From IMG/VR virus record IMGVR_UViG_3300008113_000330, positions 1 to 45,981 of that record: a stretch of 45,981 nucleotides of DNA, one strand, 5' to 3'. Position 1 is the stretch's first letter. The number at the start of each line of letters is the position of its first letter. Under the pieces are notes generated by a model. The model ran no database searches. It saw nothing but the letters and a program-made list of their open reading frames with translations, and had not been told where the DNA came from. The stretch is from a virus. Both the position numbers and the translations under genes were made by a program. This document shows, in pieces, positions 1,011-38,000 of the stretch.

Positions 1011-1211
1011 TTAAATTCCGGCTTCTTGTACAGGTGCAGCGTACATTACTCGCACAAACTTATTGTGTTCAATTTCTTCGGCACGCTTGATTTCGCGAAC
1101 TTTTCGTAGTTTGTTAAGCTGCTCAAGGGTAAGCTTTGGTTTACGAGTATCGCCTTTGTTTCGACGCTGCCATGAGTCATTCTCAGGGCTATAAAATTCA
1201 TTCAAACGCAT
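1011..1211 (-). CDS. Small basic protein downstream of the portal gene
   Basis: A 66-residue, highly charged protein. Residues about 25-50 (TLEQLNKLRKVREIKRAEEI) are likely one amphipathic helix, followed by a short hydrophobic end, VRVMYAAP. Its ATG overlaps the gp20 stop codon in TAATG, so it is translationally coupled to the portal. Small proteins lie at this place in several T4-related marine phages, but I do not recognise a function; a role in prohead assembly is inferred from position only. Confidence 0.7.
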   Translation of the reverse strand: MRLNEFYSPENDSWQRRNKGDTRKPKLTLEQLNKLRKVREIKRAEEIEHNKFVRVMYAAPVQEAGI

Positions 1212-2932
1212 TATACATTACCCCCTGGTGGTGTAACTGGGCCGCCCGGTGGCGAAACAGGGCCAGCGCCAAGATCTTCTGCTCCTGGTTCTAGCGGCTC
1301 AATATTATCTAAGCTTGGTTCCATAGCTGTATTTACCGCCGCATCAGTTGCTGCTCGTATTCCGATATTTTTAAGACCAATCATTTGATCAGTGTCAACA
1401 AACTTTTCGTATCCATTTTCAGCACGCCATAGTGCTTCGTTTTGTTTCATTTCATCTTCAGTTAAACCTAGATACTTCTTAAGTTTAAACTGATTTGAAA
1501 GATGTGGAATACTTTGTACCTGGCTGTAAAGTGTAGCTCGTTCTGCATCTATTTGTAGTTCTCTATAGCTGCTGAAGTTCATCGGAGGAGTAAATCTAAT
1601 TTTAAACTCGCTCGGATCTATTTCTATTCCTCTGTGTTTGAGGAACATCTTAAATTCAAAATCTAAATCTTCTTCTACCTGCTTTTGTAAACGCTCTACA
1701 TAACGAGCAAAACGATATTCTTGAATGTATGCAATGCCTACTTTACCGTCGTTGTACATAGCACTACCATCTTCAGGACCCGATGGCAAATAACTGCTAG
1801 GGATTCGTAAACCTCGAAGTAGCTTGTTGTTAAAATATCTTAAGTCATCAATTTGACCTAGATTTTCGCCACCTGGTAATGTGTCAACTTTACTGCCTCT
1901 GCCATCTGCGGTTTGAGCAAAGAAGTAATCTTCCAACATGCTCATTGGATTATATGCAGCATCAGTTACACCGCTGCCGTTTGCACCCTTGTTGGGTACA
2001 CGCTTTTGCTGTACTTCGTACTTTACCTGTTCTAGGTACTGGCGTGCTTTATGCGGAGGCATGTTACCTACGTCAATAAAGAACACACGACGTTCTGGCG
2101 CACGGTGAACACGATAGATAATAATACTATCTTCTAGCAGTTCTTTTTGTTTGAATACTTTAAAGATTGGCTCTAGGATACTTACACCAAATGGCCAAGC
2201 TGTGTCCATACCTTCTGTTAAGCTGATATGCACAACATGTCTTGCATCCACAGGTGAACCTTGATCGCTACCACTAATAGCACCTGTTAAGTAATTGCTG
2301 GTAGTGGTTGCTACAGGACTCATTACACCTGTTAGACCTTGACCACTGCCATAGGGTCTAGCATGTAATGACGCGGTATCAGTTGCAGTTAGTTCTTGTA
2401 AATTCTGTTCTAGATTTTTGATGAAGTACGTTTCAATCTTTTTGCCTTCACTTTCATTGACAATTACTTTTTCAATGTTAGCAGGGTCAACCCAGTATAG
2501 TTCATATGTTTCTGGATCGCGAATAAAGAATTGATCGCCGTACTTAATGCTGTTACGAAGAATACGAAATGCACGTTTGTGGAGTTGGTTTACACTACAC
2601 CATTGTGTGAGAGTCTTTAACAGGATCTTTTGTTCAGTATCGCTGGGTATACCATTATAATCAAGCATCATAGGTAGACCGGTACTGTCATCTTCTTGAG
2701 TACCAAACTCAGCAATTGTGTCTAGAGCAGCGTTAATTTCTAAGTCCTGATCCATTTGATCGTACTGGATATAACGCATAAGGCGATTAGGTGAGCCGGC
2801 ATACACTTCTGGTAGCCAACTGCTGTATCTGCTTGTAGTACTAAGCCCGTAATGTCCGCCACCTGTTTTAGGCTGTACATTAAGTGGTAAACCACTATTG
2901 TCAACAGGGGTAAAGTGTTTTCTCCAGCTCAT
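1211..2932 (-). CDS. 20: Portal vertex protein gp20
   Basis: A 573-residue portal subunit. Twelve copies form the ring at the capsid vertex through which DNA is packaged and to which the tail joins; it also starts prohead assembly. The sequence has typical gp20 features: an N-terminal segment with RYIQYDQMDQDLEINAALDT (about residues 51-70), the YELYWVDPANIEKV strand region, the HISLTEGMDTAWPFGVSILEP stem segment, RVHRAPERRVFFIDVGNMPP, and IPSSYLPSGPEDGS, all well-known portal motifs of T4-type phages. The C-terminus is Gly/Pro-rich. Length is close to the T4 protein (524). The ATG at 2932 follows a weak GAGAG and lies about 28 bases after a late promoter box. Confidence 0.95.
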   Translation of the reverse strand: MSWRKHFTPVDNSGLPLNVQPKTGGGHYGLSTTSRYSSWLPEVYAGSPNRLMRYIQYDQMDQDLEINAALDTIAEFGTQEDDSTGLPMMLDYNGIPSDTEQKILLKTLTQWCSVNQLHKRAFRILRNSIKYGDQFFIRDPETYELYWVDPANIEKVIVNESEGKKIETYFIKNLEQNLQELTATDTASLHARPYGSGQGLTGVMSPVATTTSNYLTGAISGSDQGSPVDARHVVHISLTEGMDTAWPFGVSILEPIFKVFKQKELLEDSIIIYRVHRAPERRVFFIDVGNMPPHKARQYLEQVKYEVQQKRVPNKGANGSGVTDAAYNPMSMLEDYFFAQTADGRGSKVDTLPGGENLGQIDDLRYFNNKLLRGLRIPSSYLPSGPEDGSAMYNDGKVGIAYIQEYRFARYVERLQKQVEEDLDFEFKMFLKHRGIEIDPSEFKIRFTPPMNFSSYRELQIDAERATLYSQVQSIPHLSNQFKLKKYLGLTEDEMKQNEALWRAENGYEKFVDTDQMIGLKNIGIRAATDAAVNTAMEPSLDNIEPLEPGAEDLGAGPVSPPGGPVTPPGGNV

Positions 2933-3016: not shown

Positions 3017-6000
3017 TTACACAGGTCTTTTTGCAGGATCAGTGTTGGATGCGATAGTTGTTAGTTTAGTTTCGCTCCTATTTGTTGATTCTAGCACACT
3101 ACGCATAATAGTTGCTATTTCTGACATTTTATCATATGGGTTATTGTGCTGGATTGTTCTATTTGCAGTGTTTACTTGTTCAGCCGGTGACTTTTCTCCA
3201 GCAGCAGAAGTTCTTGCAGGTTGTTCAGGTACAGCAGCGTACCCTGCCATACCTGCATTGAATGCCATAGTAGCTTGTGCAGCTTTTAATAGATCGTCCG
3301 ACTTGACTTCTTTAGCAAAAGTGTTTAATACGTTAATCATTTCAGCTGTTTCATCTTTTTTGCCAGATAGTGCATCACCCAGTCGCTCCCACCAGGTACT
3401 GGTAGTTAACTTTCCAAATTCACCGATTGCTTTAGTTAGTGCAGTAAATGCTGTTGCTAATCTGTCAATTTTATCAACTGGCATAGCAGTAATTTGTGCT
3501 GCCAATGAGCCTAAATGCTCAGTCGTTGTTGGTAGTTTTAATCCTTCAACATTTAATCCTGTAATATTAGTAAGTAGTCGTTGCAAACGATTATTAACAT
3601 TATCAACAAAAGATATTTTAATATTTTGTATAGTTACAAACATCTCTGCTAGCGCAGGATTCAACACTGCTAATCCAGCGGCAATATCAGCTACCGAAAT
3701 TGCATTAAAGAACGCTAATGCTTTGCCAACTTCTTTTACATGCTCGGGATTAATTGCCATTGCAACTAATCCATTTTGTTGTAACAGTTCTTCTTTGGTT
3801 TGTTTTGCTATATCTGCACTAGCTGATTCAGCTTCGTCGTCATCAAAGAAACCGCCAATCCAATTACCGGCCATGTTACCCAAAGTCGCGCCGATAGCGA
3901 CGCCTACTGGGCCTCCAGCTAATCCGATAGCACCGCCAACTACACCACCAATAATACCACCGATGTCTTCTTTTTTGGCTGCGCCATCGGCAGTTGCCAC
4001 ATCATATATATCTTTACCTACCATAAAGCCAGCGCCAGCAACACTTGCACCTGTGATTGCTTTTCCTGCTAAACCAGCAGATGGGAGAGCTTTTAATGTG
4101 TTACCAAATGCTCCACCATATGATCTTGCGGTGGCTAATAATCCTCCACCGGCGGTGGTGGCTGGCAGCATCTGCATGCCAGCAGCAGTGGCAGCGGTTC
4201 CACTAGCAGCAGTGGCTGCGGCGCCAAAACCTAGTTTAGCAAGACCAGCTTTACCAAGAGCAATCGCCGCGGTTTTAGCTAACGAAAGGGTTGCAAGGCC
4301 TGTAAATGCAGCTAGAAGACCAGCTATTACTACTGGACTTGTAAATAATCCTATAATTGCTTCTTTAAGTACAGTTACAAGGGCAGGTTTAACATAATTA
4401 TTAAACACATCTTTGAGAATAGTTTCAAGTTTTTCGCCGATGGTCTTGCCTTGCAAACCTTCCAAGTACGCCTTAAACTCGTTTGCTGTTTTTTCAATCC
4501 AAGGTATTAATTTTTCTCTTAATACTTTACCAAAATTTTCTGCTGTCGGAGTAATGTCTCCAAAAAATACTTTTAGAACAGTTTTGCCCACTTCACTTAG
4601 ACTGTTTCTTAGTGTGGACATCACACTAACAGTGCCTTCAACTGTGTATGCTTCTTTAATTTTTTGGTCTCTAGCAATATTATAAGCTTCAATTTGTGCA
4701 TCAGATGCATTTTCAGATAATGCATTGTTCTTTTCCCATTGCTGTACAGATTTTGCAGCTAATTCTTCCTGTTGTTTAGTTAGCCCTGTGTCAGTTAAGG
4801 CTTTCATAAATGAATCCAGCGGTTGTGCTAATCCACCTAATACTTGTAACCCAAAAGCTTTAAATGCACCCGAAACTTCACTGAGTGTGTTTTCTAGTCT
4901 AGTTCCCGATGTGATCATAGGATCAAGTGCCGGAACTATTCCCATTAAAGCATTTCTTAAATCTTGGCCGCCTACCTTAGCATCTCTAGCAGCCCTAGCT
5001 ATCATAGCAGCCATTGGGTCACCTGATGCTTCAAGCACACTCAACAGTCTTGCATTTTTCTCGCCGCCTTGCGCCAGCATGTCAACTAAACGCAACATAG
5101 TTGCTCTTGCGTCAACTGAACCAGATCTTATTTCATTGTTAAATCTAGTAAGCTCGCCCCTAAACTGTGTACCCACGGGACCTAACGCCATGACCTGTTG
5201 CATAGCAGAATCAGCCATAGGCACAGCAGATGCACCTGCGTTTATAAACACTTTTGCAAAGTTTGCAATGTCTCCGCCGAAGCCTTCAGCAATTGTTAAT
5301 ACATCACTGATTTCTTTTACAGCTTTAGCTTGTAGGTCTGCTGGCAACCTTAATGTTAAGGTTGCAAGTTGAGCACTATTTGTGAGAAAATCTTGTTTAG
5401 CATTTTGAATGTCTTTCATTGAACGGCCGAATATCGAAGACATTGCTTGTGTTAGTTTAATATTTTCTTTAATCGAAACTTCAGTAAATGCATCTAACTG
5501 CATTCGATTACTCATCGCCCGTTGGCGCATGTCAATTTCGTTTGCAGTAAATTCGGCAGCGTCACTGAGTGTAAGTCCCAACTCTGCTGCAAACGAAGAA
5601 CTAGTTGCAATACCTGAAACAAATTTTGCAAAATTTGCTTTACCTAATACTGCGCTAGCACGGCCAAAGCCGGTAAGAAGACTTGCTGCTTCAGATGCAC
5701 TCATACCCAATTGCACTAAACTGCCCACAGCATCCTGTGCTTCTGTGCCGCTGGCGCCTGCGCCGCCTAGGCCGCTTTGAGCAAGGCTTCTAAAAGCTTC
5801 GCTGGTATCCATAAATGTTTTGTAAAGTAGTCCGGCGCCAGCAGCTAAACCCACAGTAGCAGTTTTAATCGCTGCGGTAAGAATATTGCCGCCAGCTACA
5901 AACGTATTACGCATGTCTTTGCCTACGTTATCAGCAAATTCGCCCCTAAAAGATTTTAATGCCTTTACTTGCTTGTCAGCGGAGACATTAAGAACCTTTT

Positions 6001-6232
6001 CAAGTTCTTCGGTTTGTTTTTCAGATGCTGACTTTCCAGCCTTAGCAGCATCAGTAGTTGCTGCGAGTAATTTCTCATATGCTTCTGCCTGCTTTGGATT
6101 CATTTTACCCAAGGCCTGTACACTTTTTATTAATTTTTCTTGCGTAGAATCTAGTGCAAATCCAGGCAGCACTAGCCTAGACGAATTACCGTCGCTGTCT
6201 ACGATTTCTACAGTGTATTTGTCAGTGGCCAT
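3017..6232 (-). CDS. Tail tape measure protein
   Basis: A 1,071-residue Ala/Gly-rich, mostly helical protein that should set tail length and fill the tail tube before DNA passes. There are three hydrophobic stretches, at residues about 112-139, 626-652 and 754-796; the last is a Gly/Ala-rich run ending NMAGNWIGGFF, typical of tape measure segments thought to contact or cross the host membrane. Long heptad-like regions flank them. T4's tape measure and hub protein gp29 is only about 590 residues, so this virion may have a longer tail. No ribosome binding site is strong at the ATG at 6232. The large ORF on the opposite strand here is an Ala/Pro-rich shadow. The divergently transcribed neighbour gp26 carries a predicted frameshift product, which fits a tail-assembly pairing. 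Confidence 0.85.
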   Translation of the reverse strand: MATDKYTVEIVDSDGNSSRLVLPGFALDSTQEKLIKSVQALGKMNPKQAEAYEKLLAATTDAAKAGKSASEKQTEELEKVLNVSADKQVKALKSFRGEFADNVGKDMRNTFVAGGNILTAAIKTATVGLAAGAGLLYKTFMDTSEAFRSLAQSGLGGAGASGTEAQDAVGSLVQLGMSASEAASLLTGFGRASAVLGKANFAKFVSGIATSSSFAAELGLTLSDAAEFTANEIDMRQRAMSNRMQLDAFTEVSIKENIKLTQAMSSIFGRSMKDIQNAKQDFLTNSAQLATLTLRLPADLQAKAVKEISDVLTIAEGFGGDIANFAKVFINAGASAVPMADSAMQQVMALGPVGTQFRGELTRFNNEIRSGSVDARATMLRLVDMLAQGGEKNARLLSVLEASGDPMAAMIARAARDAKVGGQDLRNALMGIVPALDPMITSGTRLENTLSEVSGAFKAFGLQVLGGLAQPLDSFMKALTDTGLTKQQEELAAKSVQQWEKNNALSENASDAQIEAYNIARDQKIKEAYTVEGTVSVMSTLRNSLSEVGKTVLKVFFGDITPTAENFGKVLREKLIPWIEKTANEFKAYLEGLQGKTIGEKLETILKDVFNNYVKPALVTVLKEAIIGLFTSPVVIAGLLAAFTGLATLSLAKTAAIALGKAGLAKLGFGAAATAASGTAATAAGMQMLPATTAGGGLLATARSYGGAFGNTLKALPSAGLAGKAITGASVAGAGFMVGKDIYDVATADGAAKKEDIGGIIGGVVGGAIGLAGGPVGVAIGATLGNMAGNWIGGFFDDDEAESASADIAKQTKEELLQQNGLVAMAINPEHVKEVGKALAFFNAISVADIAAGLAVLNPALAEMFVTIQNIKISFVDNVNNRLQRLLTNITGLNVEGLKLPTTTEHLGSLAAQITAMPVDKIDRLATAFTALTKAIGEFGKLTTSTWWERLGDALSGKKDETAEMINVLNTFAKEVKSDDLLKAAQATMAFNAGMAGYAAVPEQPARTSAAGEKSPAEQVNTANRTIQHNNPYDKMSEIATIMRSVLESTNRSETKLTTIASNTDPAKRPV

Positions 6233-6330: not shown

Positions 6331-7182
6331 ATGGCTAAAACAAATAATCCACTGAGTGGTTATTTTAGAGCACCAAAGCTGTACACCAAGTTACCCAGTG
6401 GTGGACGCTTTTACACCGACGACATCGTCGAACTGGGAGAGAGTCGCGAAGTTGCAGTGTTTGCTCTTACTGCTAAAGACGAAGCAATTCTCAAAAACCC
6501 TGATGCACTATTAAACGGCGAAGCAGTTTCACAAATCATTAAGAGCTGCGTACCTGCTGTGCAACAACCAAGAAAAATGTTAAGCAGTGACATTGACACG
6601 CTGTTAGTGGCTATTCAAGGTGCTACCTACGGCGACGACATTGACGTAAAAGGTAAGTGTCCAGAATGCGGCGCTGAATGTTCAGGTATTGCCAGCGTCG
6701 AGGGCGCACTCGAAACTATGAACACATTGGAAGAATCGTATTCATTTGAAACAGCAAGTGGGCTAACAATCGAAGTTAAACCGTTTAGTTATGATAGCAC
6801 CATTAAAGCTGGTATTGCAAATTTCCAAAGTACTCGCAGTCTACAAAGCTTGTCTGCTATAACAGACGAGTTAGAACAGCTTAAAGCATTCAACAGCAGC
6901 TTTGTTCGTATGGCCAAAGTCAATTTTGATCTTGTGGTAGATTCTGTTGCTAGTATTCGAGGCGCTGGCGAAAATGATCAGGAGTTTGTTGTAACAGATT
7001 CTGATCAGATCAGAGAATTCTTAGAAAATTGTGAAACCACTATCGGCAAAGAAATCGAAAAGACCATTGAGAAGATCAGCAAAATTGGCGTTAATAAGAA
7101 AGTCCAATTAGAATGTGACGAGCACGGCGCATTCGAGCAGGAGGTTGGCTTTGACCCTGTAAATTTTTTCACAGCTTCCTAA
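6331..7182 (+). CDS. 26: Baseplate hub subunit gp26
   Basis: A 283-residue protein of the gp26 family, needed for assembly of the central baseplate hub. The diagnostic N-terminus is present (YTKLPSGGRFY, residues about 18-28). A Cys cluster CPECGAEC (C110, C113, C117), with C262 and H265 near the end, suggests a zinc site. The ATG at 6331 follows ACAGGAG with 7 bases spacing; an upstream in-frame extension lacks a binding site and would overlap the promoter. The reading frame ends at TAA (7180-7182), but a -1 slippery heptamer lies 10 bases before the stop, so part of translation probably continues as a longer fusion. It is divergent from the tape measure gene. Confidence 0.9.
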   Translation: MAKTNNPLSGYFRAPKLYTKLPSGGRFYTDDIVELGESREVAVFALTAKDEAILKNPDALLNGEAVSQIIKSCVPAVQQPRKMLSSDIDTLLVAIQGATYGDDIDVKGKCPECGAECSGIASVEGALETMNTLEESYSFETASGLTIEVKPFSYDSTIKAGIANFQSTRSLQSLSAITDELEQLKAFNSSFVRMAKVNFDLVVDSVASIRGAGENDQEFVVTDSDQIREFLENCETTIGKEIEKTIEKISKIGVNKKVQLECDEHGAFEQEVGFDPVNFFTAS

Positions 7183-7403
7183 CTTCAGCTGAGCCTGAAG
7201 AGATTGTTGCATATTTAGGCTCACTAAAAAAGGGAGCAGAAGAACTTCAAAAGAACCTAACAGAACTAGTCATATATAGTGGCGGTTCGTTTTCGTGGAC
7301 CGAAGTATGGCACATGAGTCACAGTGAACGAGAAACGGCAGTTAAAGTCCTTAACGATTATAGTAAAGCCAAAGCAGGTAAATCGGCCACTGAGTGGATG
7401 TAA
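6331..7403 (+). CDS. Predicted -1 frameshift fusion gp26/gp51-like (357 residues)
   Basis: After the slip at 7164-7170 the ribosome would read 77 further codons in the -1 frame to TAA at 7401-7403. The extension starts HSFLTSAEPEEIVAYL and ends SKAKAGKSATEWM, with a Trp-containing core SFSWTEVWHMSHSERE. The -1 frame is open only from 7155, contains no ATG, GTG or TTG before the Met at 7314, and overlaps the gp26 frame for 28 bases. A separate start is therefore very unlikely. In T4, gene 51, encoding a hub-assembly factor, lies next to gene 26. Lambda-type phages make the tape measure chaperone GT by the same kind of -1 shift. The functional parallel is inference; the frame arrangement is directly visible. 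Confidence 0.75.
7164..7170 (+). promoter_or_regulatory. -1 ribosomal slippery heptamer T_TTT_TTC
   Basis: The zero-frame codons of gp26 are TTT (7165) and TTC (7168), preceded by T, which matches X_XXY_YYZ. Both tRNAs can re-pair after a tandem -1 slip, and the new frame continues as CAC AGC TTC. This is the only run of this type in the 28-base window where both frames are open. Confidence 0.8.
7183..7200 (+). promoter_or_regulatory. Hairpin 3' of the slippery site
   Basis: CTTCAG (7183-7188) pairs with CTGAAG (7195-7200) around a 6-base loop. It starts 12 bases after the heptamer, slightly further than the usual 5-9, directly behind the gp26 stop codon. It could act as the stimulatory structure for frameshifting. 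Confidence 0.5.
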
Positions 7404-7428: not shown

Positions 7429-7457
7429 AAAAAGCAAGCGTAATGCTTGCTTTTTTT
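7429..7457. terminator. Intrinsic terminator after gp26/gp51-like, possibly bidirectional
   Basis: AAAAAGCAAGC and GCTTGCTTTTTTT form a 9-11 bp stem around GTAAT, with a T-run on the plus side and an A-run (T-run on the minus strand) on the other. It ends the gp26 transcript and could also stop leftward transcription from the gp55 operon. Confidence 0.85.
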
Positions 7458-7539: not shown

Positions 7540-7608
7540 AGACACTTCGTGTCTTATCTTACTGCATTCATTCACTTCGTTTCACTACGCTCATTCATTT
7601 GTAAGATA
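7540..7608. repeat. Nested hairpins with TTCGTG/CATTCA-type simple repeats
   Basis: A 6-bp hairpin AGACAC-TTC-GTGTCT (7540-7554) is followed directly by an 8-bp stem TATCTTAC/GTAAGATA (7555-7562 and 7601-7608). The 38-base loop repeats CATTCACTTCG and CATTCATTT motifs. It lies downstream of the 7429-7457 terminator and at the 3' end of the small minus-strand ORF. Confidence 0.55.
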
Positions 7609-7762
7609 TGTTTTTATTTGTTTTATTAATTACGAAGTTATCACGATAGTGGAGCCATAGTTCACCCGTTACAGGGTGAACAAAAAATAAAGCGTCATCA
7701 CGATGAGCTTCACCATCTCCAACCCGGGTGCTGTTAGGAAGCAGAGCGCCTTCTCTCCCCAT
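7595..7762 (-). CDS. Possible small protein of 55 residues (unidentified)
   Basis: ATG at 7762 (reading MGREGALLPNSTRVGDGEAH...) to TGA at 7595-7597. The stretch HPVTGELWLHYRDNF looks protein-like, but there is no clear ribosome binding site. The sequence immediately upstream continues a protein-like reading in a frame one base off, joined at GGGG (7757-7760). It may therefore be the 3' part of a broken gene rather than an independent small gene. I do not recognise the family. Confidence 0.3.
   Translation of the reverse strand: MGREGALLPNSTRVGDGEAHRDDALFFVHPVTGELWLHYRDNFVINKTNKNISYK
7660..7681. repeat. Strong 8-bp inverted repeat
   Basis: GTTCACCC and GGGTGAAC surround a 6-base loop GTTACA. 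It is not followed by a T-run in either direction, so it is not a simple terminator. On the minus strand it falls inside the 55-codon ORF. Confidence 0.6.
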
Positions 7763-8070: not shown

Positions 8071-8493
8071 TTATATTCTCTTTAGTGCTTCACGAAGGAT
8101 TTGTGAACCGCCTACTCTAACGTTTATAATGCCGTTGTAGTACTCGTCTGTTTCCAAAACCTTGCGCTCAAACTGCTCTCTGGCTTCTAAATAGCTGGCT
8201 ACGCCTCTACTGGGGCAAAAGTACAGTATCTCTCGAGTAAAGTATTCTGCACCTAAACGCAGAACATCTTCCTTTAAATGATCGTTACTGCCCCAATAGT
8301 CGCGCCAGTCACTTTCTACTGAGCTGCGTCTTTTGTTCTTTTTACCTTTTAGTGGGGGGCGTGTTTTTTTGAATCGGGCTAACTTTTTACCAACATATTT
8401 TTTATTGTTAGTAAGGTTAGTAATCAAATAAACAAACGCTTCCGTACCTTCAGGTAATTCGTTTACTGTTTGACCTTTATATATCCAGCTCAT
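8071..8493 (-). CDS. GIY-YIG-type endonuclease, free-standing
   Basis: A 140-residue protein with a GIY-YIG-like nuclease fold. The two signature elements appear as VYL (21-23) and YVG (33-35) in AFVYLITNLTNNKKYVGKK. A conserved Arg/Lys patch follows (KLARFKKTR), then the DWRDYWGSN motif at about 62-70. The C-terminal YLEAREQFERKVLETDEYYN supplies the expected Glu (E103 or E106) and Asn (N120). I recall similar proteins in T4-type cyanophages. It is the fifth gene of the gp55 operon. There is no obvious binding site, but TTTAAATA lies 5 bases before the ATG. Its target is unknown; a role in DNA degradation or recombination is inferred. It does not sit in an interrupted gene, so homing from an intron is not indicated. 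Confidence 0.75.
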   Translation of the reverse strand: MSWIYKGQTVNELPEGTEAFVYLITNLTNNKKYVGKKLARFKKTRPPLKGKKNKRRSSVESDWRDYWGSNDHLKEDVLRLGAEYFTREILYFCPSRGVASYLEAREQFERKVLETDEYYNGIINVRVGGSQILREALKRI

Positions 8494-17594: not shown

Positions 17595-20369
17595 ATGTCA
17601 ACTAGATCAAATCCAATTATCGCTACAAAAAAGAATGACCAGCTAGCAGAACAGCTAGAGACTAACCCTCTTTACGGTATATATCAAGGCGAAGTTACTA
17701 GGACGGATGATACTAGCCGTACCGGCACAATACAAGTTTTTATTGCAGCGTTAGCTAAGGACAAAACTGATCCAGCTGGTTATAGGGAATGTACATGGGT
17801 TAGTCCGTTTGCAGGTTCTACACCAGTAGCAGCGATTCCAGTAAATCCTGATGTAGAACGCTACGAACAAACACAAAAAAGTTATGGCATGTGGATGGTA
17901 CCCCCAGATGTTGGTAATATAGTTTTAGTGGCATTTGGCGATGGCAAAAAGAAACATCCTTATATCATAGGGTGTGTTTTTCCTGATAGATTTAATCACA
18001 TGGTTCCAGGCATGGCAGGCGCACTTTCATACGGCGAAGGCAAACTACAGGTCCCAGTTGCTGAAAAAAATAAAAAAGAAGCACGAATAGATCATAACAG
18101 TAATGAAGTTCGCCGTCCGATTGCACCATATCTTGCTGAAGGTATCGTAACACAAGGTTTGATTAACGACCCGTTACGTGGCGCAGGTAGTGCAGGTGCG
18201 AGACGTGAAAGCCCTAGTCAAGTATTTGGTATACTAACACCTGGGCCGCTAAAACCTGGAAGTAGTTCTACAACTACGCCACTTAATGCACACCGAATGG
18301 GCGGCCACCAATTTATTATGGATGACAATCCTGGTAGTAGTATGATTCGTTTACGCACCGGTGGTGGCACACAGTTAATACTAGACGATACCAGCGGTTC
18401 AATTTACATGATTAATAAATCAGGCACAGCCTGGTTTGAGATGGACCGATTGGGGAATATAAATTTTTACGGACAAGGTTCGATGAACATCCGCAGCAAA
18501 GGGAATCTAAATCTACGTGCAGATAAGAATGTCAATATTGAAGCCGGCAATGATGTAAACATCAAAGCAGCAGGAGATAATATTGGAGAGGAATACTTAG
18601 GACCAGCGCCAGGAAAGTCTATCGGTGTAGGGGCACTAGGAACAGGCGGCGCGATCAGATTAGACGCTGCTGCTGATATTCAACAATTTGCAACAACAAA
18701 CTTTGCAATTACCTCAGCAGGCGGCGACTTTGATCTAAACGCGGCTGGCAAGATTGCAATTCAAAATTTTGGAGAGCAGGGCTTATCTTTACTCACTGGT
18801 ACTGGTCCACTAGTATTAGAAGCAAGTTTGGGCGGAATATCAATGAAAGGTACAGCAGGAATTGGTCTAACTTCTCCGGGAACTGTTGGTATAGTTGGTA
18901 CATCAGCAATTAATTTAAATAGTGGTCCTGGATTTACAGCAATTCCATTAGCAGCCGCTCCGGCAAGCGAGATCGGGATGAATGAACATAAAGACCAGCC
19001 TGCCGCGGCACCAGAATTTGATATGGATGCTGCCTTAAGAGGTGAAAATGCTATTAAAAATAATGGTAATCGTTCAGGTAAAGCTGATACTATCAAAAGT
19101 ATCGTAACATGCCTAGTTACTGCTGAACCATACTCCGGTCACTATCAGGGTGCTGTTATTCTAAAAGAAGATCCTACTGCACAGGGTGCAGATGAGGGTG
19201 TAACAGCAGACTTCCCACCTGCCTCGGCCGATGCAACTGGTTTACCAAGTGACGCACAAACTCCGGGCGCCTGCTATGCAGGCGATGGATATAATGACGC
19301 CAACGGAAACCCAGTATCACAATCAGCTGACTCACCTTCGGCAAGAGCAGCGGCCGCTGTCAACTCTGCTGCAACTAGAGCACAGGGCGCAACAGGGTCT
19401 GCTAGTAGGGCACTAAATGACACTGCTTCAAGAGCTAGTGCAGAACTTGCAAATTTGCAAAATTCTATTCCGACATATGCAGATGTTCGAAATGCTGTTA
19501 ATGATTTTAGTAGCGCATTAGAAAAAAAGATAAATGAAGTGATGAACCAAAGCGCATTTGCTGCGGCTATTAGAGCACAAATACCACTAGTTAGATTTCC
19601 TACCGTTAATGCGTTACAGCAAAGAATAATAGCATCAATGAAACAGTTAAAAGAGCTAGAAGCACAACTACAGCAGTTTAGCTTAGATAGATTTGGTCTT
19701 CCGATCGATTTAAACATTCCTGCTATTCGAGATATGCAAAATCAAATTAATGGCGTACTGGCACAAGCCAGAGACGGTTTAGATGCTGTTAACAGGTTAA
19801 AAGAATTGGGTATTGAAGTTGTAAACGATGCAGGTAGTTTAATTTATCGAGATTCGCTGGGTAACACACTAGTAGATTTTAAAAATGGCGTCGGCCCAGT
19901 GGCTAGTTCACTCGCCATTCAAAGTGAAATGGCAAGAACATACAACAACATTAAAAATTCTATTAGTGTACCACTTAATAATAATCAAGCTCAAGCATTA
20001 TCAGCTTTTGCTAAAGACATCGGCGAAGAAAATTTTAGAAACAGTAACGTACTACGAGCACTTAACGAAGGCAAATACAACGAAGTGCCTAGACTAATGG
20101 CCCAATGGAGTCTCGGACCTACTATTGGTAGTAACGTTCCTACTCCTACTAACCAGCTCGTATACCGTCAAGATTTTAATGATAAACGATACTTCCAAGG
20201 CCAAGTATTCCAAAGTCCAGATAATTTAAATATTGCACCGCCAAATGGAACTGCTGACGGCGAGTTGTCACCTAGACAGATGGGTGACCTTATCAAGTCA
20301 AGACGTGAAGAATTTAACGCTGCTAATTATGTAGGACCAACTGAATACTTTGCAGGCCCACGCAGATAA
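17595..20369 (+). CDS. 5: gp5-like baseplate central spike (no lysozyme domain)
   Basis: A 924-residue protein. Residues about 25-140 form a gp5/VgrG-type OB-fold (LYGIYQGEVTRTDDTSRTGT ... WMVPPDVGNIVLVAFGDGKK ... YIIGCVFPD). Residues about 235-330 carry a repetitive beta-helix needle (GHQFIMDD, RLRTGGGTQLILDD, SIYMINKSGTAWFEMD, then NIRSKGNLNLRADKNVNIEA). The remaining 500 residues are a long Ala-rich, partly coiled C-terminal extension. T4 gp5 has a lysozyme domain between OB-fold and needle; here that space holds only a linker. It follows the hub gene by 3 bases and ends the operon at a strong terminator. Confidence 0.88.
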   Translation: MSTRSNPIIATKKNDQLAEQLETNPLYGIYQGEVTRTDDTSRTGTIQVFIAALAKDKTDPAGYRECTWVSPFAGSTPVAAIPVNPDVERYEQTQKSYGMWMVPPDVGNIVLVAFGDGKKKHPYIIGCVFPDRFNHMVPGMAGALSYGEGKLQVPVAEKNKKEARIDHNSNEVRRPIAPYLAEGIVTQGLINDPLRGAGSAGARRESPSQVFGILTPGPLKPGSSSTTTPLNAHRMGGHQFIMDDNPGSSMIRLRTGGGTQLILDDTSGSIYMINKSGTAWFEMDRLGNINFYGQGSMNIRSKGNLNLRADKNVNIEAGNDVNIKAAGDNIGEEYLGPAPGKSIGVGALGTGGAIRLDAAADIQQFATTNFAITSAGGDFDLNAAGKIAIQNFGEQGLSLLTGTGPLVLEASLGGISMKGTAGIGLTSPGTVGIVGTSAINLNSGPGFTAIPLAAAPASEIGMNEHKDQPAAAPEFDMDAALRGENAIKNNGNRSGKADTIKSIVTCLVTAEPYSGHYQGAVILKEDPTAQGADEGVTADFPPASADATGLPSDAQTPGACYAGDGYNDANGNPVSQSADSPSARAAAAVNSAATRAQGATGSASRALNDTASRASAELANLQNSIPTYADVRNAVNDFSSALEKKINEVMNQSAFAAAIRAQIPLVRFPTVNALQQRIIASMKQLKELEAQLQQFSLDRFGLPIDLNIPAIRDMQNQINGVLAQARDGLDAVNRLKELGIEVVNDAGSLIYRDSLGNTLVDFKNGVGPVASSLAIQSEMARTYNNIKNSISVPLNNNQAQALSAFAKDIGEENFRNSNVLRALNEGKYNEVPRLMAQWSLGPTIGSNVPTPTNQLVYRQDFNDKRYFQGQVFQSPDNLNIAPPNGTADGELSPRQMGDLIKSRREEFNAANYVGPTEYFAGPRR

Positions 20370-26046: not shown

Positions 26047-29000
26047 ATGAGCAACAAAATCTATAAAAAACTTCCGGTAGTACTACAAACTACAGCAATC
26101 AAAAACTTTTTTGAAAGCACTGTAGAGCAACTGTTTAGTAAAGCAAACGTAGAAGTAGTATCGGGATATATAGGTTCTAAATCAAGTGCAGATGTAGGCA
26201 TTACAGGGTACATAGCTGAACCCAACAACGATAAAGCACGTTATGCATTATCCCCTGTGGTAAACACTATCAACTACACTACCAAAGAAAGTGAAGACTT
26301 TATATTCTTTGACGAGTTAATTGATATACTATCTACATACGGTGTTGATACTTCCAATCAAAACAAAATTTTTGGTGCAAACTTTAACAGTTTTGTGCCA
26401 CCCATTGAACTTGATAAGTTTGTTAACTATCAAGAATACTACTGGTTTCCGGATGGACCAACAGTTATCCCTGTTGCAGGAACACTGGAAAATCCTATCG
26501 ATATTGACCGTGATATTTTAGGTAAACAATATTACACACCTGTAGGCGGGAAGCCTTTTAGAAATGGCATGGTTGTCCGCTTCACTGGTCAATACGTAAT
26601 TCCTAGCAGTGAATTAGAAATTGATTATATTGTTCAGGGCGTGGGGCAAGGAATTTATGTTGTACCGAGACGTAATCAATTCCAAACTGTGTTTTCAACA
26701 CCAGTGGATGCGCCATACGACGGTTCATACTTCCCTCTTAATCACCCAGACATTGCACACCAAGCTGGTAATGTTTCTAGTGTCACAGTTGTAAGTCAAG
26801 GCATTGGATATGTAAATCCAACGGTTAGCATAACAGGTTCTAACGTCAATGTTGCAGTAGCAACAGCTAACGTTGCAGCAAACGGTGCAATCACAGGGAT
26901 TGCTGTTAGTGATGCAGGTCGTGGCTACACTAAGTTTGTTAACGTTGAGCTAGCTGATATCAATATTACATATGATATAGACACCGCAAATATTTTTACT
27001 GGAAGCAGTAATGTAGTTGTTACAGCAGATATCTTCCTAACAGAAGATCCTGCTAATGTTAGAATTGGTCAAGGTATTAACGGTATTGCTAGCGGCATTG
27101 TGTCTAAGAAGTTTGATAGCGCAGAAGTAGAGGGCTACTTTGGTACATACTTAACAGTTCCTACAGCAAATGTGAACCCTACAACAGGAACGTTTACATA
27201 TCCAAATCACGGACTAGCTACCAATGACGAAGTTGTTTATGACGCCGGTGGCAGCACACCTATTAGTAACATTCTTATCGGCGGAAGATATCAGGTATTA
27301 GTTGTTGACTCTAACAGATTTCAACTAAAAGAACTTGGTAATATTGTAACATCATCTCCAGGTGACACTGGAAATAATAGTCAAGGCTTTATTAAGAAAT
27401 CAACCACATTTACTGTAACAGCAGTAAACGATGGCTCATTAACAGCAGGTATGATGTTACATCATGCAGATCTTGTTTATAAAACTAAGATCGTTTCGCA
27501 ACTTAGCGGGTCAACTGGCAGCACAGGAACTTATAAAGTTGATGTTGAAAATAACACGGTTCATACATTCCCTGAAACATTTACAGTCAAACCAACTGTT
27601 GTGTTATCGCAAGCTGTTGAACTAGAACGTAACTCTGTAATTGCAGCATCTGAATTAACTTTTGCCGGCAGAGATTTTCTTGCAGAAGTTAACTATGAAT
27701 GGCAAGGGACTCCTGCAACAGGTAACTTAACTATTTCTGGTACTACACTATCTGTAGCCAATCTAACTACCGGCAGCGGCACAGTTAAAGTAGGAATGGT
27801 TCTTTCAGCATCAGATATATTACCGCATACTATTATTGTAGCAGGATCAGGTAGTACATGGACAGTTAACAAAGCGCAAACACTTGCAACAAGAGAATTT
27901 ACCGGTTATCCTGCAGGATCACGCTTAGGTATTAATCCTGCTAACGGTGAATACTATCTAATGGGCGGGCAATGGCCATTTGATAAAAATGATATGGATG
28001 ACGATGAGTTTGATGGCGACTCACAATGGGACGCAGGACTAAACATTAGCCCACCAGAATATTTAACAGTTCAGCGCGGAGCCGAAAACACAAATATTTG
28101 GAGCACAATTAACTTTTGGTATCATCGAGATAACTTCAAAGATGCAGGTATGCAGTTGCCAAATAGACGTTTCCGTGCAGAACGACCAATCATTGAATTT
28201 GATCGCAGACTAGAATTATATAATCACGGTAAGCGTGGTGTTGGCAGCGTAATAGTTGCATGTACACAATATACTATTGATGAAGTTCGCGGGAAACCAA
28301 CAGGATTGTTGATTGACAGCACACCAATTGAACGTCAAAGTATTATTTTCCCAAATGAGCAATCAGATGTTGCAAAATATGTTTATGTTGCGTTCACAGA
28401 TTTAGACTCAGAAACAATTGCTGTTGTTAGAGCACCACACCCAGAATTAAATCCAATCGGTGCAGTAGACGGTGATTTTAACTTTGTGCCTTGGGAATTA
28501 AATGTCGATGATGCAATCTTAGTTCGTTCAGGTGCTGAAAATATTGGTGCCGAATATAGATTTACACCTACCGGTTTAGAGCTATGCCAAAGAAAAGTAA
28601 GTACCAATCAGGCACCGCTGTTTAACTTATATGATACAGACGGCGACTACTTAGGCGACAACGGCAAGTATCCTAATAATAATTTTGAAGGTAATAAAAT
28701 CTTCTCATACACATTAGGTACTGGTGCCGATGATAATGTGTTAGGATTCCCGCTTTCGTGGATTGGGTTTAAAGCAAGTAGTGAGATCGAATTTACTGTC
28801 GACATGTCACAGGCATCATATTCACATACATATCAGCCATTTGGTGGAAATCAACTAAGCACAGTAGGATATAAATTCTACAAGTTAGAGCTCAATGGTG
28901 AGCATGAATTACTGTCAATGATGGTACCCTCTGATCGTCCTGCATATCAACGATTAGTATCAACTTATACTATCGATCGATTTGATATTGATAATGCTCG

Positions 29001-32000
29001 CAGAGAATTTTGGATCGGCTGCGTACCAGATCTAAGATCAGACAGCAGTTACGACGTTGATGTATTTGTAAATGGTATTAAACGTACTGACTGGCAGTAC
29101 GGGGTATTCGGCGCCGGGTACATTGTATTTGATAGATTTGATCTTTCAAACGGGGATTTCATTGAAATCAACGCATTTTCTAACGCAGGTCAATTAATAG
29201 TAAGTGACAAAGCTATTAGTAAATTTGAACTACCATTAAGTTGGAAGACCAATGTTACTAATGAAGAAATAACAGCTACATCATCACCTGAATTTACGCA
29301 ACACTTTAAAAACTACATGGAGAATCAAGTAGGTTTTGAAGGCGATGCGCTACAAGTTAATAATTTCTCAAGTACACCTAAAGATGTAGCATACGCTACC
29401 GATATCGTTGTTACTGATCAAGACGTAATTTTGGGTGCATTACTGTTAGACGATCAACCACATAATCTAGTAGATGCTATTAGATTTAATGCTGAAGAAT
29501 ACATGAAATATAAAGCACGATTAAAGAAAGAAATCAGTGCATATTACACATTATTCGAAACTAACGGTCTTTCAAACGAATTTATTTTAGAAAAAGTACT
29601 ACAAAATATTACCTCTTTCAACGTTGGCCGAGAAGTGTTCAACAGAACATATGTAATTCCATATGGTGATAACTATCTTGAAGAACGCTTTGAAATTAAC
29701 GATGTAAACACTACTGAATTTGTGTCATCCAATTTTACTGATCTAAACAAGATTGAAAACAGCTTATTAGTATATCATGTTAATGCCGATACATTTGAAA
29801 CAACACTGTTAAATGTTGATAAAGATTATATCATTACTAATTTTAATCCTATCAATATTGTATTAAACGGTGTTAACGTTGAACTAGATGATGAGATAGT
29901 TTTAAAACTTTATAACGAAGAGCGCGATAGCGCACAATGCCCGCCTACTCCAAGTATGTTAGGTATCTATCCTCTATTTGAACCTAGAATTGAAATTGAT
30001 AATAGTTTTCAGACACCTGTTCAAGTACTTGTGGGGCACGACGGCAGTAAGACTACACTATTTGGCGACCGCCGTGATGAAATATTACTTGAGTTCGAAA
30101 AGCGTGTGTTCAACAGTGCTAAGGCAGAATTTAGATCTGCTAATGCACTACCAGAATTAAACATCTATACACTAAAACCCGGCGCATTTAGAGAAACTGG
30201 ATACACAACAACTGAATGGGCAAGTTTGCAGCGATACTATTTTTCAAACTGGTCTGTTACAAATAAAATTGATTATGTAACAAATGAATTTTACAGTGAT
30301 AGCAACGAGTGGACCTGGAACTATCGCGGAAACACTGATTTACCAGGTCACTGGAGAGGTTGGTACGAGCATTACTACGATACAGTAAGGCCGCATACTC
30401 ATCCATGGGAAATGCTTGCATTCTTTGAAAAGCCACTATGGTGGGACAGTCAGTATGGCACAGACTACAGCAGTGCTAACACTGCTATGTGGGATGACCT
30501 AGAAGAAGGAATCATCCGTAGTGGTGCTAGAGAAAATTTAACTGCTGATGCATATTTAATTAATAATCCTTATCGCAGAGAAGGCTTGCATCTTGTACTA
30601 CCGGTAGATGATAATGGTGAGCTAAAGACTCCTAAAGACATTATTACCACTGGTACAACTACTAAAACATCAATTTGGTCTAAAAGTAGAGCAAATGTAA
30701 CAGTAGGTAATTTTCATACTTCTTCTAGTCTAAAATCAAATACTTTATTAACCGTAAATGGTTTAAATGTAACTTATAGCAACAGCAATATCTATATTGC
30801 TGGACGTAACATTACTAACCATAATGTTGATGTTGAAACTAACGCTGTTGGATTTGGACCAATTGAAGAACAGGATGTGTCCTACAACATTCCAAACGTT
30901 AATCTAAACGTAGTGTCTAGCACACCAACAGCTATGCCAGATTATGCTGTAGCTGTTCTAGTTAATGGTGTTTCTCTGTACACGCCCAAGTCAATTAAGA
31001 GCTGGGATGATCAAGGTGTTTGGCACTATAACAACGGCACTATTGATGATTATAATGAACTTGCTACATTCAGCCATAGTACTGTAGGTGGTTTATTCCA
31101 CTATCACGCAATTACCCCTGATGTAGTTGGGCTAACAGCAGGTGTTGTTGAAGAAGACGGTGCATTGAAATGGGATAGTACAACACATAGTCCTATAGTT
31201 GGATGGGCATTTGACGGCCTTCCGATTTATGGTCCATATGGTTACATCAACCCTGAAGATATTACTAGTGACATTGTTAACATTAAAAGTCCTTGGGCAT
31301 TACGTCAAGGTACGCGATCAGTTGCACCTGGAGGCGCATATACTGGTATGTTCGTTGAGGACTACGAAATTGACGCAACAAAATCAGGACAACCAGGCTA
31401 TACAAACCAGTTCAACTTACGCTACGGGTTCACCCCAGATAGTCCAGCTACTAAAATTCGATACTATGTTGTAACTGTAGATAATGCTGGTAAGCCAATG
31501 TTCCCATATGCAACAGGCGGCGGTTATGCAACTCATACCTCGTCAACAAAAACATGGGCTGGCCAGTACTATGCAGCAGGACAAGATCTGAGCAATAATG
31601 CATTAAGCAGAGGCAGTGTAGTGGCTGCTACTCCTGCACTAACCAGCACATTGCAGATTACGTTTGGTACAACAGATGCAAGAAATGATAGCTGGAAGTT
31701 TGGCGATGGCGCACCTGCTGAAAATGCTTGGAAATACTCAGAAGCATATCCATTTGCTGTAACTGAAGCACTGTTACTAGCAAGACCAGGTAAGTTTGCT
31801 ACAGAATTTGCTGATCCTACAAAACTTTACAGACCAACAGCAAACAAAAAATACAAATTGTCGGTTAACACGAATTATCCATGGATCTTTACATCTGCTA
31901 CAGATTTTGAAATTCATGGCGACAGAGATATTAACGGTAACTTCATTACCAACATTGGATATACCCAATTTATTAACTCATGGTTACGTTTCCAGGGTCT

Positions 32001-35000
32001 GTCACCAGAGAGCGACTTTATCACTAAAGTACGCAGTCTAAATACTAAACTTGGTCATAGAATGAGTGGCTTTATTGATAAAGACACTATGACTTTACGT
32101 ACTGACCAGTACAGCAATGAAGGTAGTGCTACTAGCTTAATTATTCCTCAAGAAAACATTACTGTGAACATTCATAGTTCGCCATATAAGTCAAGAAACT
32201 TCTATAGCGGTGTTATAATTGAAAAGACTTCTGAAGGACATAAAGTAAGAGGATATGATAAAAATCTAGGTTACTTTACTACACTACAAAGTGATAAGAA
32301 TAAAGGCAGAGAGCGCATCAGTGTTGGCGGTACACCCGCACAGTTTGTTGACTATTCACAGAATACTACGTATAAAGAAGGAACCATTGTACGCTACAAG
32401 GGTGCTTACTATTCTGCAAGAGAAACATTTAAAACTGGTACAACATTTGAGGCTGCTAAGTGGCGAAGACTAGGCGCACTGCCACAAATTGGTGCTGCTA
32501 CCGGTACGCTATATCAGCAAACAACAGGCAACATTATCAAAGTTGATTACGAAACAGTATACGATAATACAGAAGACTTATTTGACTTTTTAATTAGCCT
32601 AGGCAGATATCATGAATCACAGGGTTACACATTTGGTAACTTTGACGAGACTATCGGTGAAGTGCGTGACTGGGCTTATGCTGCAAAACAATTCTTGTTC
32701 TGGACTACAGGTGTTTGGGAAATCGGCAATACATTGGAACTTAGTCCAATGGCTAACAAAGTCACCTTTGTTGCACCACGAGGTTTCATTGCAAAAATCA
32801 ATAGAACAGACCGTTCACAGTTCAATATTGTAAACCAAAACGGTGTTGCAATCAATCCCACAGACTGTGAGATTGTACGCCAAGATAACACTATTGAGAT
32901 TGTGCCACCAGAAGGTGAGCAAATTTATGGTGTTGTACTCTTTACTAAAGAAATTGAGCACGCATTTGTTGTAGATAATGTTACACAATTTAATGATGTT
33001 ATTTTTAACCCTGTTATAAATCAGGGACACAGTAGATTAAAGATCAAAGCGACTAGAACAGCAGGTTGGGATGGTAGATTCTTAAGTCAGGGCTTTGTTA
33101 TCGAAGGTGATAGCTTAAAGCCTAACTTAGACAACATGGCTGAAAGCTTAGGCCGTTATCATGAATTAGGATTCATTCCTGTAGAAAAACAACTGTATGA
33201 AGCAAGCCGCGCAGTATTTGGTTTCGAACAAAAGCAATATCTGACTGAACTAGATATTATTGATGATCAGCAATATGATTTTTATGCAGGTATGTTGCAA
33301 AGCAAGGGTACAACTACTAGCTTAGAGCGTATTGGTACTATTGTTCCTGCACTTTCGCGCTCGCCAGCAAGTGAGATTAATGTTTACGATGAATGGGCAT
33401 TACGTGTAGCTGACTTTGGTGATACAAACCAAGATCAAGCTATCGAATTAAAATTTGATAAAATTGATCAAGTGCAAGATCCGCAATTGTTTACGCTTGC
33501 TTTCCCGGAAGACACAACTAATATTGTAGAAAAGATTGAAGTATTAGAGCGTAAGCACAAATATTTTAATGTTCCACAAATTATTATTTCTGCTCCAGTA
33601 CAAAGTAATGGCGTAAGAGCTACTGCCACTGCTACACTTAATAGTGCAGGAGAGCTTGGTGCAATAACTGTAACAAATCCAGGTTCAGGTTATGGTGAAA
33701 TTGTAGGCGTAACAGTTATTGCAGGTGAAATAGTTGTTGACTTAGATGAAACAGTTTTTGACACTGTTCGTGCATACAGCACAGCCTACATTAGTACCAC
33801 AAGTGCAAGTCTAACAGGTAATTTATCAATTACTGATTTTTCAACTACACTTGCTGCAAATGCACTAGTGGCAAACAAAGGATACGTGATTACTGCCCCG
33901 GGCACAACAAACTTTACTTTATTAGGTGCAGCAAATAATAACATAGGAACAGCATTTGTTGCATCAGCTACAGGTACAGGTACAGGTACAGGGGAAGTTA
34001 GTAATGTAACAACCACGGTTAATCTATCAACTGGAATTTCAAACATCAGCACGCTAGTTAACACTATTAATAATGCAAACACAGGCGTTACTGCTATTGC
34101 TATTAGAAGCGATGTTAACATTGGCGGAACAGTTCAACCAAAATATACATTAGAACTAAGAGGTAACGGTTTTACTATTAACAGTGCCGATGCTAACTTA
34201 CACCTAAATTCCGCGGTCAATGTTTATCAAAATGGCGTAAACTATACTACCACAGTAGGTAGCGGCTATCGCTACGAACCTCGCCAACGCTATGGCTTTG
34301 AAGTAGCAAATAACACAGTAAAGGCAGATGTTACTGTTAGTGTTAATAATTCGGTACTAGGCGCCGCATCTTGGGACTATGATGCTGGTGATAGATGGCA
34401 AATTACTACTGCGGCAGTTGCCGATCAGAACAATCCACTAACTGTACTTCTAAACACTGGGTTAGTTAACGGTAATACAACTATTGCCAATGAAAATTAT
34501 ACCACTATTAGTAACAATAACTATCCGTTTGTGGATGTTTATGTTAACGGTGTTTTAATCCAAAACAGCCCAGAAGAAATAGTATATACCCTTACTGCTT
34601 CAACAGTTGAATTTGCTAATATCTCATTACTACCAACTTCGGTGTTAACATCGCTGCCTAATCCGGCTACAAAAACATCTCGCTTTGTTCTAGCAAGTCA
34701 GTCAAACGTTTTTGTAGTAGAGAAAGGCACAATTGATTTCACAAATGCATACAAGGGCGATGTTACAGGAAGTACGTTAAACATTAAAGTTGAAACACAC
34801 GATCATATCGCAATCAAACTAGGCACAAGACGTAATTACGAAATCACACCTGATGCAACTGATGATGATATTATTTTAATTGACATCGACGATTCGTCAC
34901 GTTTCTTAAGAAAACCTACTGGAAGCAGAGAGAACAATCTATGGCCAACATTAACAAATGTTGATTCTTACGGGTTGACCACAGAAAAATATCCTACAAT

Positions 35001-38000
35001 TCCAAATGCAGGTTACGTAAACCCTGCAAACGTTAACTTTATGGCATATGATATTGCTAGCTTACCTGACTTGTTTGATACTAATATCATAATCAAACCT
35101 GCAGGCGGTAGCTTGATTCATATGGCCGAAGATGAGTCTAAAAATTGGAATGTATATAGACTACAGTCTATTGGTTCTAGAACATCTTTTGTAGAAAATA
35201 AACCCGGCAGTAACGAAGCAGTTTTATACACAGATAGAAGTTTATTTGCTTACTTAGATACTAACTTAATTGGTAACGATAATACATCTAAGTACATGGA
35301 TTATTACCTAACACTAAAGAATGCTAATGTCAGCGATAGCGTGGTTATCTGGACCAACGAAACAATTGTACAACAGAAGAAAGCCTTAATTAAGGACCCT
35401 CAACCACCTAAGATGATTGAGGCTAGAATCAAGAGCATCGGACCACACCCAGAAAGCTTAATCACCATTCAAAATATTCTACCTGTATCTTCAAAAGTGT
35501 ACAGAGGAGCAACAGCAAGTGCTTCAAGCGGAAGTAATATTGTTACAATCTCTGGCATTACTAACTCTGATATTAGAAACGGTGATGCAGTACAGTTAGT
35601 TGCAGGCGAGTCAACCGATTATACATTTAATGCCAACGTAACCTTTAACAGCGTAGGTAATGTAACCATTGGCAGTGCTAACATTACATTCGTAACAGCT
35701 CCTAGTTTTGTAACATTACTATGTGATGGTGACAGCACTGCCAATGGCAACATTTACTATGTAAAGAGTAAGAATGTTAGTGCAAATACCTTTGTAATTG
35801 AAAGTGATTATTTTGAAGATGCAAATGTAGTATCTGGGTTGGGCAATGTGCGCTACATTACATCGACTTTTGTTAGTTATGGTAATATATCAAATCACTA
35901 TGTAGCATCAAATACTACTACTAATGCGTTTACTATTGAACTACCTGGAGTAATTGAAAAAACTGCTACATTTAACGGTTCTATTACTGGTACTGTTCTA
36001 ACAGTTAACACTGTAGCAGGCGGGATTATTGAAAGAGGAATGCGTCTAAGCGGCGCAGGAATAGCCGCAGATACGGTTATTACTTCTGGTAGTAACTTAT
36101 CATGGCTTGTTTCTAACAGTCAAACGGTTGGTAATGTTACTATTACTGCTACTAGACCAAACGTTATTGATGTTCGACATATGAACTTAACTAAATTAGT
36201 AACAAGTTCAGCGCATAACTTAAATCCTGGTGATGTTGTTAAGGTTTATGCTAATGCATGGACTGGAGCATATTCAATTGTTTCTGCACCTGAAGCAAAT
36301 ACTGTTATTATTTCGTCTCCGTATACCACTGATGACAAAATAACTGGTACTATTGTTAGAAGAGGTATGCAGATTAAAACTACTGATCCACATGGTATCA
36401 CAAAGAGTTCTGTGGATCTAAACAAACGTGTTGCTGTACACTTTGCAACACCAAAAATTTACAACAAAGTTTACAGAATTACTTCTGTAGGCAGCGATAC
36501 TATCAACGTATTAGATGACTTTGCTGTTAACGATACAACAAGTGTATATTTTGATGTTGCTAGTGGCTTTGCAAATATTAGTGCGAACACATTTACAATT
36601 GCAAGACGTCCAATACTTGCTGCAACTACGGTACTGTATGCATCAAATACTCAACCTGTTATGGCGGGTGATTATTATATCAATGAAAACTTGTCAAATA
36701 CAACAATTACCTTTAAGAATACTATTCTTAGCGAAGATGCTAACGTCTCTACTGGTTTTGTTATTATCAGAGAACCGATCTCAACAGACTTTAGATATCC
36801 AGTTCTTACCACAGTTGACCACACTAAGGTAACTTTAAACAACTCTGTTATCAATATCGGTAGCTACAACAACCCGGAGGGCATGATTGAGAGTATTAAT
36901 CGCGCAATTAGGCTAAGAAGATCTGCTGTTACACAAGATAGAAGCGGAAAGCTTAATGTATCATTTAATATGCTAAATGACTTTAAGACTCCGGTTCGCA
37001 TTCCAGATACTGATATTAAAACTACGGCTAGCGAGATTCACAATTACGGTCCATACGTAAGAGATGAACAATCTTTAATTGATTTAGTGGGTAATTCGGG
37101 TTCTACAAAAGTTGCAGGCGAAATGAAAATTTCAGATGCAGTAGAATACCGTCGCGATCCTAATTTTGACACAGGCCCGGTATATGTAGGCCCGCTCAAA
37201 GGTATGCGATACACTGATTCAAACGGTGTTATGTATTATTGGGACATAACCTTACGTAAGTACATTCCGAATTACGAAACAATCAGCGGATCATCAGCAT
37301 CAGGACTAGAGTTTGAACTCTCTACTAATTCGAGCATAAGCGACGGCTCAGAGGATTCTAGAAATAATGTTACTGATGAGGGTAACAAAACTATCGAAAA
37401 TGCAGTTAGCAAGCCAGCATTGCCTCGAGGTCATACAGATGGTGCGAATGTACTAAAAATTATTCCTGGTACAGCAGAATCTAATCCAACCAATCCCGCT
37501 ACTAAAGCTGTTAAGTGGTCCGAATATGATATGAATGAAACTGTGGTTTACAGTTCAGTTACATACTCGCGTTGGAGACTAAAAACTAGTGAAGTATGGC
37601 AATTTGAAGTTTATGAAGCTGTACAAAACAATGCAGGTACTGTGTATTATGTACTTGTAGATGTTGTGCCAGCTGATTTACCTTTTGCATACGATTATTT
37701 TGCTACTGTAAGTGCATACAACGGCTTTAACGGTTTAATTACTGAAACTGTATATTACACGATTGGCGGTACCGATTCATCTGCATCAGCTGGTATTAAA
37801 TGGGCTGCAACTAGAAATGACCGAGCTAAGAATTTCAAGTACATCGAAATACCTCCAGTTGAGCCTGCATTTTATGTAGGCAAGCAAATCATTCCTGAAC
37901 CATTTGCGGTTAAAGGTGGAAACGGCACTGACAAGTACGCTAACTTTAGGTTTATGCCCGAAGGTGCAGTTGTTGGAAGTGCCACTTCCAACACAGAAAC

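Follow-up and report, generated by a model that had tools for sequence, protein, structure and literature searches.

A gp26-family gene in a 45,981-nt stretch of viral DNA (IMG/VR record IMGVR_UViG_3300008113_000330, positions 1 to 45,981; hereafter the window) is very probably a tail-assembly chaperone (TAC) gene of the lambda G/GT type, in which a programmed −1 frameshift yields a short and a long form, T4 gp26 and gp51 apparently being the same two forms split between separate genes. We infer that ribosomes slip in vivo, how often they do so and that the products act as chaperones; the gene anatomy, the slip site and its conservation are described below.

The gp26-family open reading frame (ORF) runs on the plus strand from an ATG at 6331 to the zero-frame stop TAA at 7180–7182, which ends a TAC-N-like short product of 283 amino acids. 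This product matches the PF12322 (T4_baseplate) profile (E = 4.5e-16; 59.6 bits against a cut-off of 24.5) and phrog_150 (baseplate hub; E = 2.3e-20), and its AlphaFold2 model (pLDDT 81.5) has BFVD matches to gp26/gp51-family proteins. As a first-pass annotation of this DNA had stated, the −1 frame is open from 7155 to 7403, contains no ATG, GTG or TTG before the ATG at 7314, and encodes a 77-residue tail. Counted from the slip site, the −1 extension (7170–7403, plus strand) consists of codons 7170–7400 followed by a TAA stop; it is modelled as helical (pLDDT 88.2) and would lengthen the product to 357 amino acids, giving a TAC-NC-like form.

The terminal codons of gp26 read GTA AAT TTT TTC ACA GCT TCC TAA. 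They place the slippery heptamer T_TTT_TTC in phase at 7164–7170 on the plus strand, 9 nt upstream of the stop, exactly where the first-pass annotation had located it, and they hold a second in-phase heptamer, A_AAT_TTT (7161–7167, plus strand), which overlaps the first and had gone unmentioned. The predicted peptide across the frameshift junction is VNFFHSFLTSAEPEE.

We compared the window ORF with 78 distinct IMG/VR ORFs and 17 cultured jumbo phages, a set of 96 ORFs in which a few phages are represented twice. An in-phase −1 heptamer is present in 96/96, as T_TTT_TTC (84), T_TTT_TTT (2) or A_AAT_TTT (10). In the last group (10 of the 78 IMG/VR relatives), A_AAT_TTT is the sole heptamer remaining, in the reading GTA AAT TTT TCC, and the junction peptide NFFH is unchanged; these ten gp26 ends (L061, L079, L081, L089, L091, L103, L105, L107, L108, and L118) carry AAATTTTTCC instead of T_TTT_TTC. 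The slip site exceeds chance expectation, because TTTTTTN occurs in phase there in 86/96 ORFs, compared with only 5 in-phase occurrences in 25,113 codons outside the site in this set. Across 7,249 codons of other long ORFs in the window there are 4.

The extension is under purifying selection. It is retained as protein in all relatives, and the ratio of nonsynonymous to synonymous substitution rates (dN/dS) was 0.04–0.39 in every pair giving an estimate. In PA5oct, the extension contains no ATG, GTG or TTG anywhere, so independent initiation is not the general mechanism. The locus thus combines an in-phase X_XXY_YYZ heptamer in the overlap with a −1 frame that is conserved as protein and has no shared start, which supports the programmed −1 frameshift into a start-less extension that had been predicted from the window. 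Among relatives, the slippery site is constant and the absence of a start codon is variable, some having an ATG near the stop. Against Pfam, PHROG and NCBIfam, the window extension gave weak, chance-level matches only.

The frame change recurs at the same site in ∼175 related sequences. In the cyanophages P-SSM2 and S-RIM8 and in Rhizobium phage LG08, TTTTTTC lies 3–6 nt upstream of the stop codon of gp26, from where the −1 frame leads into a small ORF annotated as gp51 (P-SSM2 and S-RIM8) or as hypothetical (LG08). The slip site is also present in Vibrio phage ValKK3 (Straboviridae) and in 75/75 distinct cyanophage-type loci, which are close relatives of one another and not independent cases. 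L212, a record of a huge uncultured phage, matches the common domain and has neither the heptamer nor a comparable extension, which shows that not every distant homologue has the feature. Jumbo, cyano- and KVP40-type relatives usually have the frameshift, and T-even-type phages have two separate genes; the first-pass idea that a lambda strategy had been newly brought into a T4 hub is not supported.

PF12322 is matched by both of the T4 proteins: the match takes in almost all of gp26 and residues 1–201 of 249 in gp51, which leaves gp51 a C-terminal tail of ∼48 residues. By these profile matches the two are paralogues of one family, and the earlier notion that two distinct hub proteins are fused is not supported; in gp51, a gp26-like domain is followed by a tail that is homologous to the −1 extension. 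With hhalign, the cyanophage-type extension aligned to the gp51 tail at 97.7% probability (P = 2.5e-12), the alignment beginning at the slip site; on full-length gp51 the real match reached 97.0% and column-shuffled controls ≤ 2.9%, and the same extension had no match to T4 gp26. The extension of the window's jumbo clade matched the gp51 tail at 72–87% (controls ≤ 3.3%). The gp51-like character ascribed to the extension, for which a profile comparison with T4 gp51 had been suggested, is thus clear at the sequence level for the cyanophage type and moderate for the window's clade. The phrog_150 profile gives a similar picture: it is covered at 14–235 by T4 gp26, 13–280 by T4 gp51, 5–232 by P-SSM2 gp26, and 231–278 by the P-SSM2 −1 extension. 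A separate gp51 gene was considered and set aside, since a gp26-family protein is matched only once in the window and at one place per record in the complete jumbo genomes.

Under the proposed mechanism, one gene would supply two tail-assembly chaperones, TAC-N and TAC-NC. Most ribosomes would stop at 7182 and release the 283-residue gp26/gp51-family protein, and a minority would slip by −1 on T_TTT_TTC, with A_AAT_TTT helping or replacing it, to make the 357-residue form. On the model of lambda G/GT, the region shared by both products would wrap the tape measure protein, whose gene is probably the divergent neighbour, and the scarce long form would bring in subunits of the tail tube or the hub end; in T4, the equivalents would be separate genes, with gp26 as the short form and gp51 as an in-frame long form. 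The lambda analogy drawn in the first-pass annotation holds for the predicted short and extended forms and for a −1 slip near the 3′ end; the gene lies beside a candidate tape measure gene. Unlike lambda G/GT, the window gene belongs to a different protein family and its tape measure candidate is divergent, not downstream. The lambda slippery heptamer is GGGAAAG, as opposed to T_TTT_TTC in the window.

Judged by gene anatomy, the products are most likely a chaperone pair like lambda G/GT. T4 gp26 and gp51 have been listed as hub assembly chaperones and not as secure hub parts (PMC3004832), and one GenBank record names both of them “tape measure protein assembly chaperone”. The main competing reading, that of the first-pass annotation, takes gp26 as a structural baseplate hub protein and its extended form as a minor structural hub variant. 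It agrees with database labels that read “baseplate hub” and with RaK2 gp087, a gp26 homologue that is missing from the reported set of four predicted structural proteins that went undetected (PMC3622015) and is by exclusion apparently present in virions, a misfit for a pure chaperone. The virion mass spectrometry list of phage CBB points the other way, with the divergent neighbour CBB_251 abundant (29 peptides) and CBB_250 unlisted, so that the virion proteomics as a whole gives a mixed picture; the gene logic equals that of lambda G/GT. We regard a structural role as unlikely.

Beyond RaK2 gp087, several results weigh against a lambda-type frameshifting chaperone. Foldseek searches of the extension against BFVD gave no confident match and none to a known lambda-type chaperone, and those of the common-domain model against the PDB likewise found no known lambda-type chaperone; no sequence or fold homology of the window protein to this group was detected. 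Compared directly with the gp51 tail, the jumbo-clade extension matches over only ∼30 columns. Downstream of the slip site, RNAalifold on the relatives returned no consensus pair, hence no conserved stimulatory structure, and a candidate 9-bp stem (7191–7199/7214–7222) has no clear support, as slid versions pair about equally well or better.

A downstream stimulatory structure is frequent, though not obligatory, in programmed −1 frameshift genes. The 6-bp hairpin CTTCAG/CTGAAG (7183–7200), singled out in the first-pass annotation, is present; as a stimulator it fares poorly, being neither the predicted fold of the region nor conserved (47.5% of cells pair across 33 relatives, the same as in shuffles). 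The predicted fold is a nested hairpin at 7174–7237 (plus strand; −24 kcal/mol, z −3.3) that starts 3 nt past the heptamer, and its base pairs are not conserved among relatives. Several relatives also fold better than simple shuffles, and a fast-changing, lineage-specific stimulator may act at the slip site. An Rfam search returned nothing near threshold, and a Shine-Dalgarno-like AGGAGG (7139–7144) was set aside as it lies ∼19 nt from the heptamer and is missing in most relatives.

The downstream frame could instead be a separate small gene, expressed by re-initiation or from its own start past the gp26 stop. An ATG does overlap or closely follow the stop in BF, 121Q, XbC2, and ValKK3 and lies at +3 in all 75 cyanophage-type loci, and annotators call small ORFs directly after gp26. 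That start is not conserved, however: PA5oct has none, the window none for 132 nt past the stop, and S-RIM8 none for ∼50 nt, whereas the heptamer is always kept, and the stretch from the heptamer to the annotated starts is itself conserved as protein. This makes a separate gene very improbable.

Transcriptional slippage on the T run, in place of ribosomal frameshifting, would be expected to give a similar protein outcome, and a homopolymer is indeed present. The run is only 6 T, and 5 in ten relatives, which is short for RNA polymerase slippage, and the ten variants lacking T6 keep an X_XXY_YYZ heptamer for tRNA slippage with the same junction product; we give this route slightly less credence still than a separate gene. 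A homopolymer is also a typical place for an assembly error to change the frame, but a sequencing error or a gene decayed and split by an indel is refuted to the point of being negligible, because the same change recurs at the same site in the ∼175 sequences, some of them from cultured phages sequenced independently, and both frames are under purifying selection.

A −1 frameshift in one gene thus remains the preferred account, and it bears on how these loci are annotated. Cyanophage gp51 was described by Sullivan et al. in 2010 as lacking its first ∼200 residues, in a text that does not mention a frameshift (PMC3037559); a frameshift product, with the annotated gene as its C-terminal part, would explain the missing residues. 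Cyanophage gp26 and its short “gp51” (Kyanoviridae, PMC3037559) share with the window the heptamer, its place and a related extension, which is shorter in the middle than the window's and often has an ATG at +3, which has been annotated as the start of gp51. Most likely, both the cyanophage “gp51” and the small “hypothetical protein” that follows the baseplate hub gene in RaK2-like phages are C-terminal parts of the frameshift product, and the annotated starts of cyanophage and KVP40-type “gp51” are probably wrong or secondary. The cyanophage and KVP40-type records concerned (L127, L128, L131–L210, and L211) appear to carry a “gp51” that forms the C-terminal end of a product frameshifted from gp26. 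Hundreds of genomes would receive a corrected gene model for the gp26 locus.

A tree built on the common domain separates T-even-type gp26 and gp51 from all frameshifting genes (99/99). Because the root is a midpoint root only, the direction of change is inferred. On balance we favour a frameshifting gene as ancestral in T4-type phages, with a duplication giving rise to T-even gp26 and gp51, of which one lost the extension and the other fixed it in frame; in the window's clade, the site can change between T_TTT_TTC and A_AAT_TTT without altering the junction peptide.

Vladimirov, Gautam & Davidson reportedly named the tail assembly chaperones of T4-like phages in 2022 (Virology 566:9-15). We read these chaperones as gp26/gp51; in T-even phages the two forms are separate genes, whereas the window has one gene with a −1 site. 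A passage in PMC12846349 treats poly-T −1 signals in the TAC-N genes of T4-like phages as known and cites the 2022 work, and to judge from that passage part of the present finding was evidently already published then. The same paper describes, in Vandenendeviridae and Andersonviridae (phage Adele), a TAC locus with a conserved −1 frameshift at GTTTTT and a downstream ORF mis-annotated as separate (PMC12846349), which resembles the window in having a T-run −1 site in a tail assembly chaperone gene, in a different phage group. A 2016 review of −1 frameshifting tail assembly chaperones, lambda G/GT included, called T4 an exception to the conserved frameshift (PMC5009743), whereas the present data indicate that most T4-type lineages examined keep it. 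The role of T4 gp26 and gp51, an old question, becomes testable as that of a two-form chaperone.

The candidate tape measure protein (3017–6232, minus strand; 1071 amino acids) has a predicted identity only. A divergent long ORF lies upstream of the gp26 gene in 74/74 IMG/VR relatives checked; its N-terminal part is alike among close relatives, and the RaK2 counterpart has been noted as tape-measure-like. Beyond it, the T4-type portal protein gp20 (1211–2932, minus strand; PF07230, E = 2.7e-108) identifies the phage as T4-type. On the other side, ∼26 nt past the end of the extension, a terminator-like palindromic hairpin (GCAAGC..GCTTGC plus a T run; 7429–7457, plus strand, the prediction being listed on the minus strand) suggests that little else lies downstream on the gp26 transcript.

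Just past this terminator and before the next genes, an AT-rich stretch at 7540–7660 contains inverted repeats (e.g. AGACACGAAGTGTCT). A SegE-type GIY-YIG endonuclease (8071–8493, minus strand; PF19835, E = 2e-32) lies between the gp26 locus and gp46/gp47-type genes, a spot occupied by endonuclease VII in several enteric jumbo relatives. Further along, a T4 gp5-like hub/spike protein of 924 amino acids (17595–20369, plus strand) carries phage lysozyme and OB (Phage_base_V) domains, and a giant ORF of at least 6,645 codons (26047–45981, plus strand) continues beyond the last position of the window.
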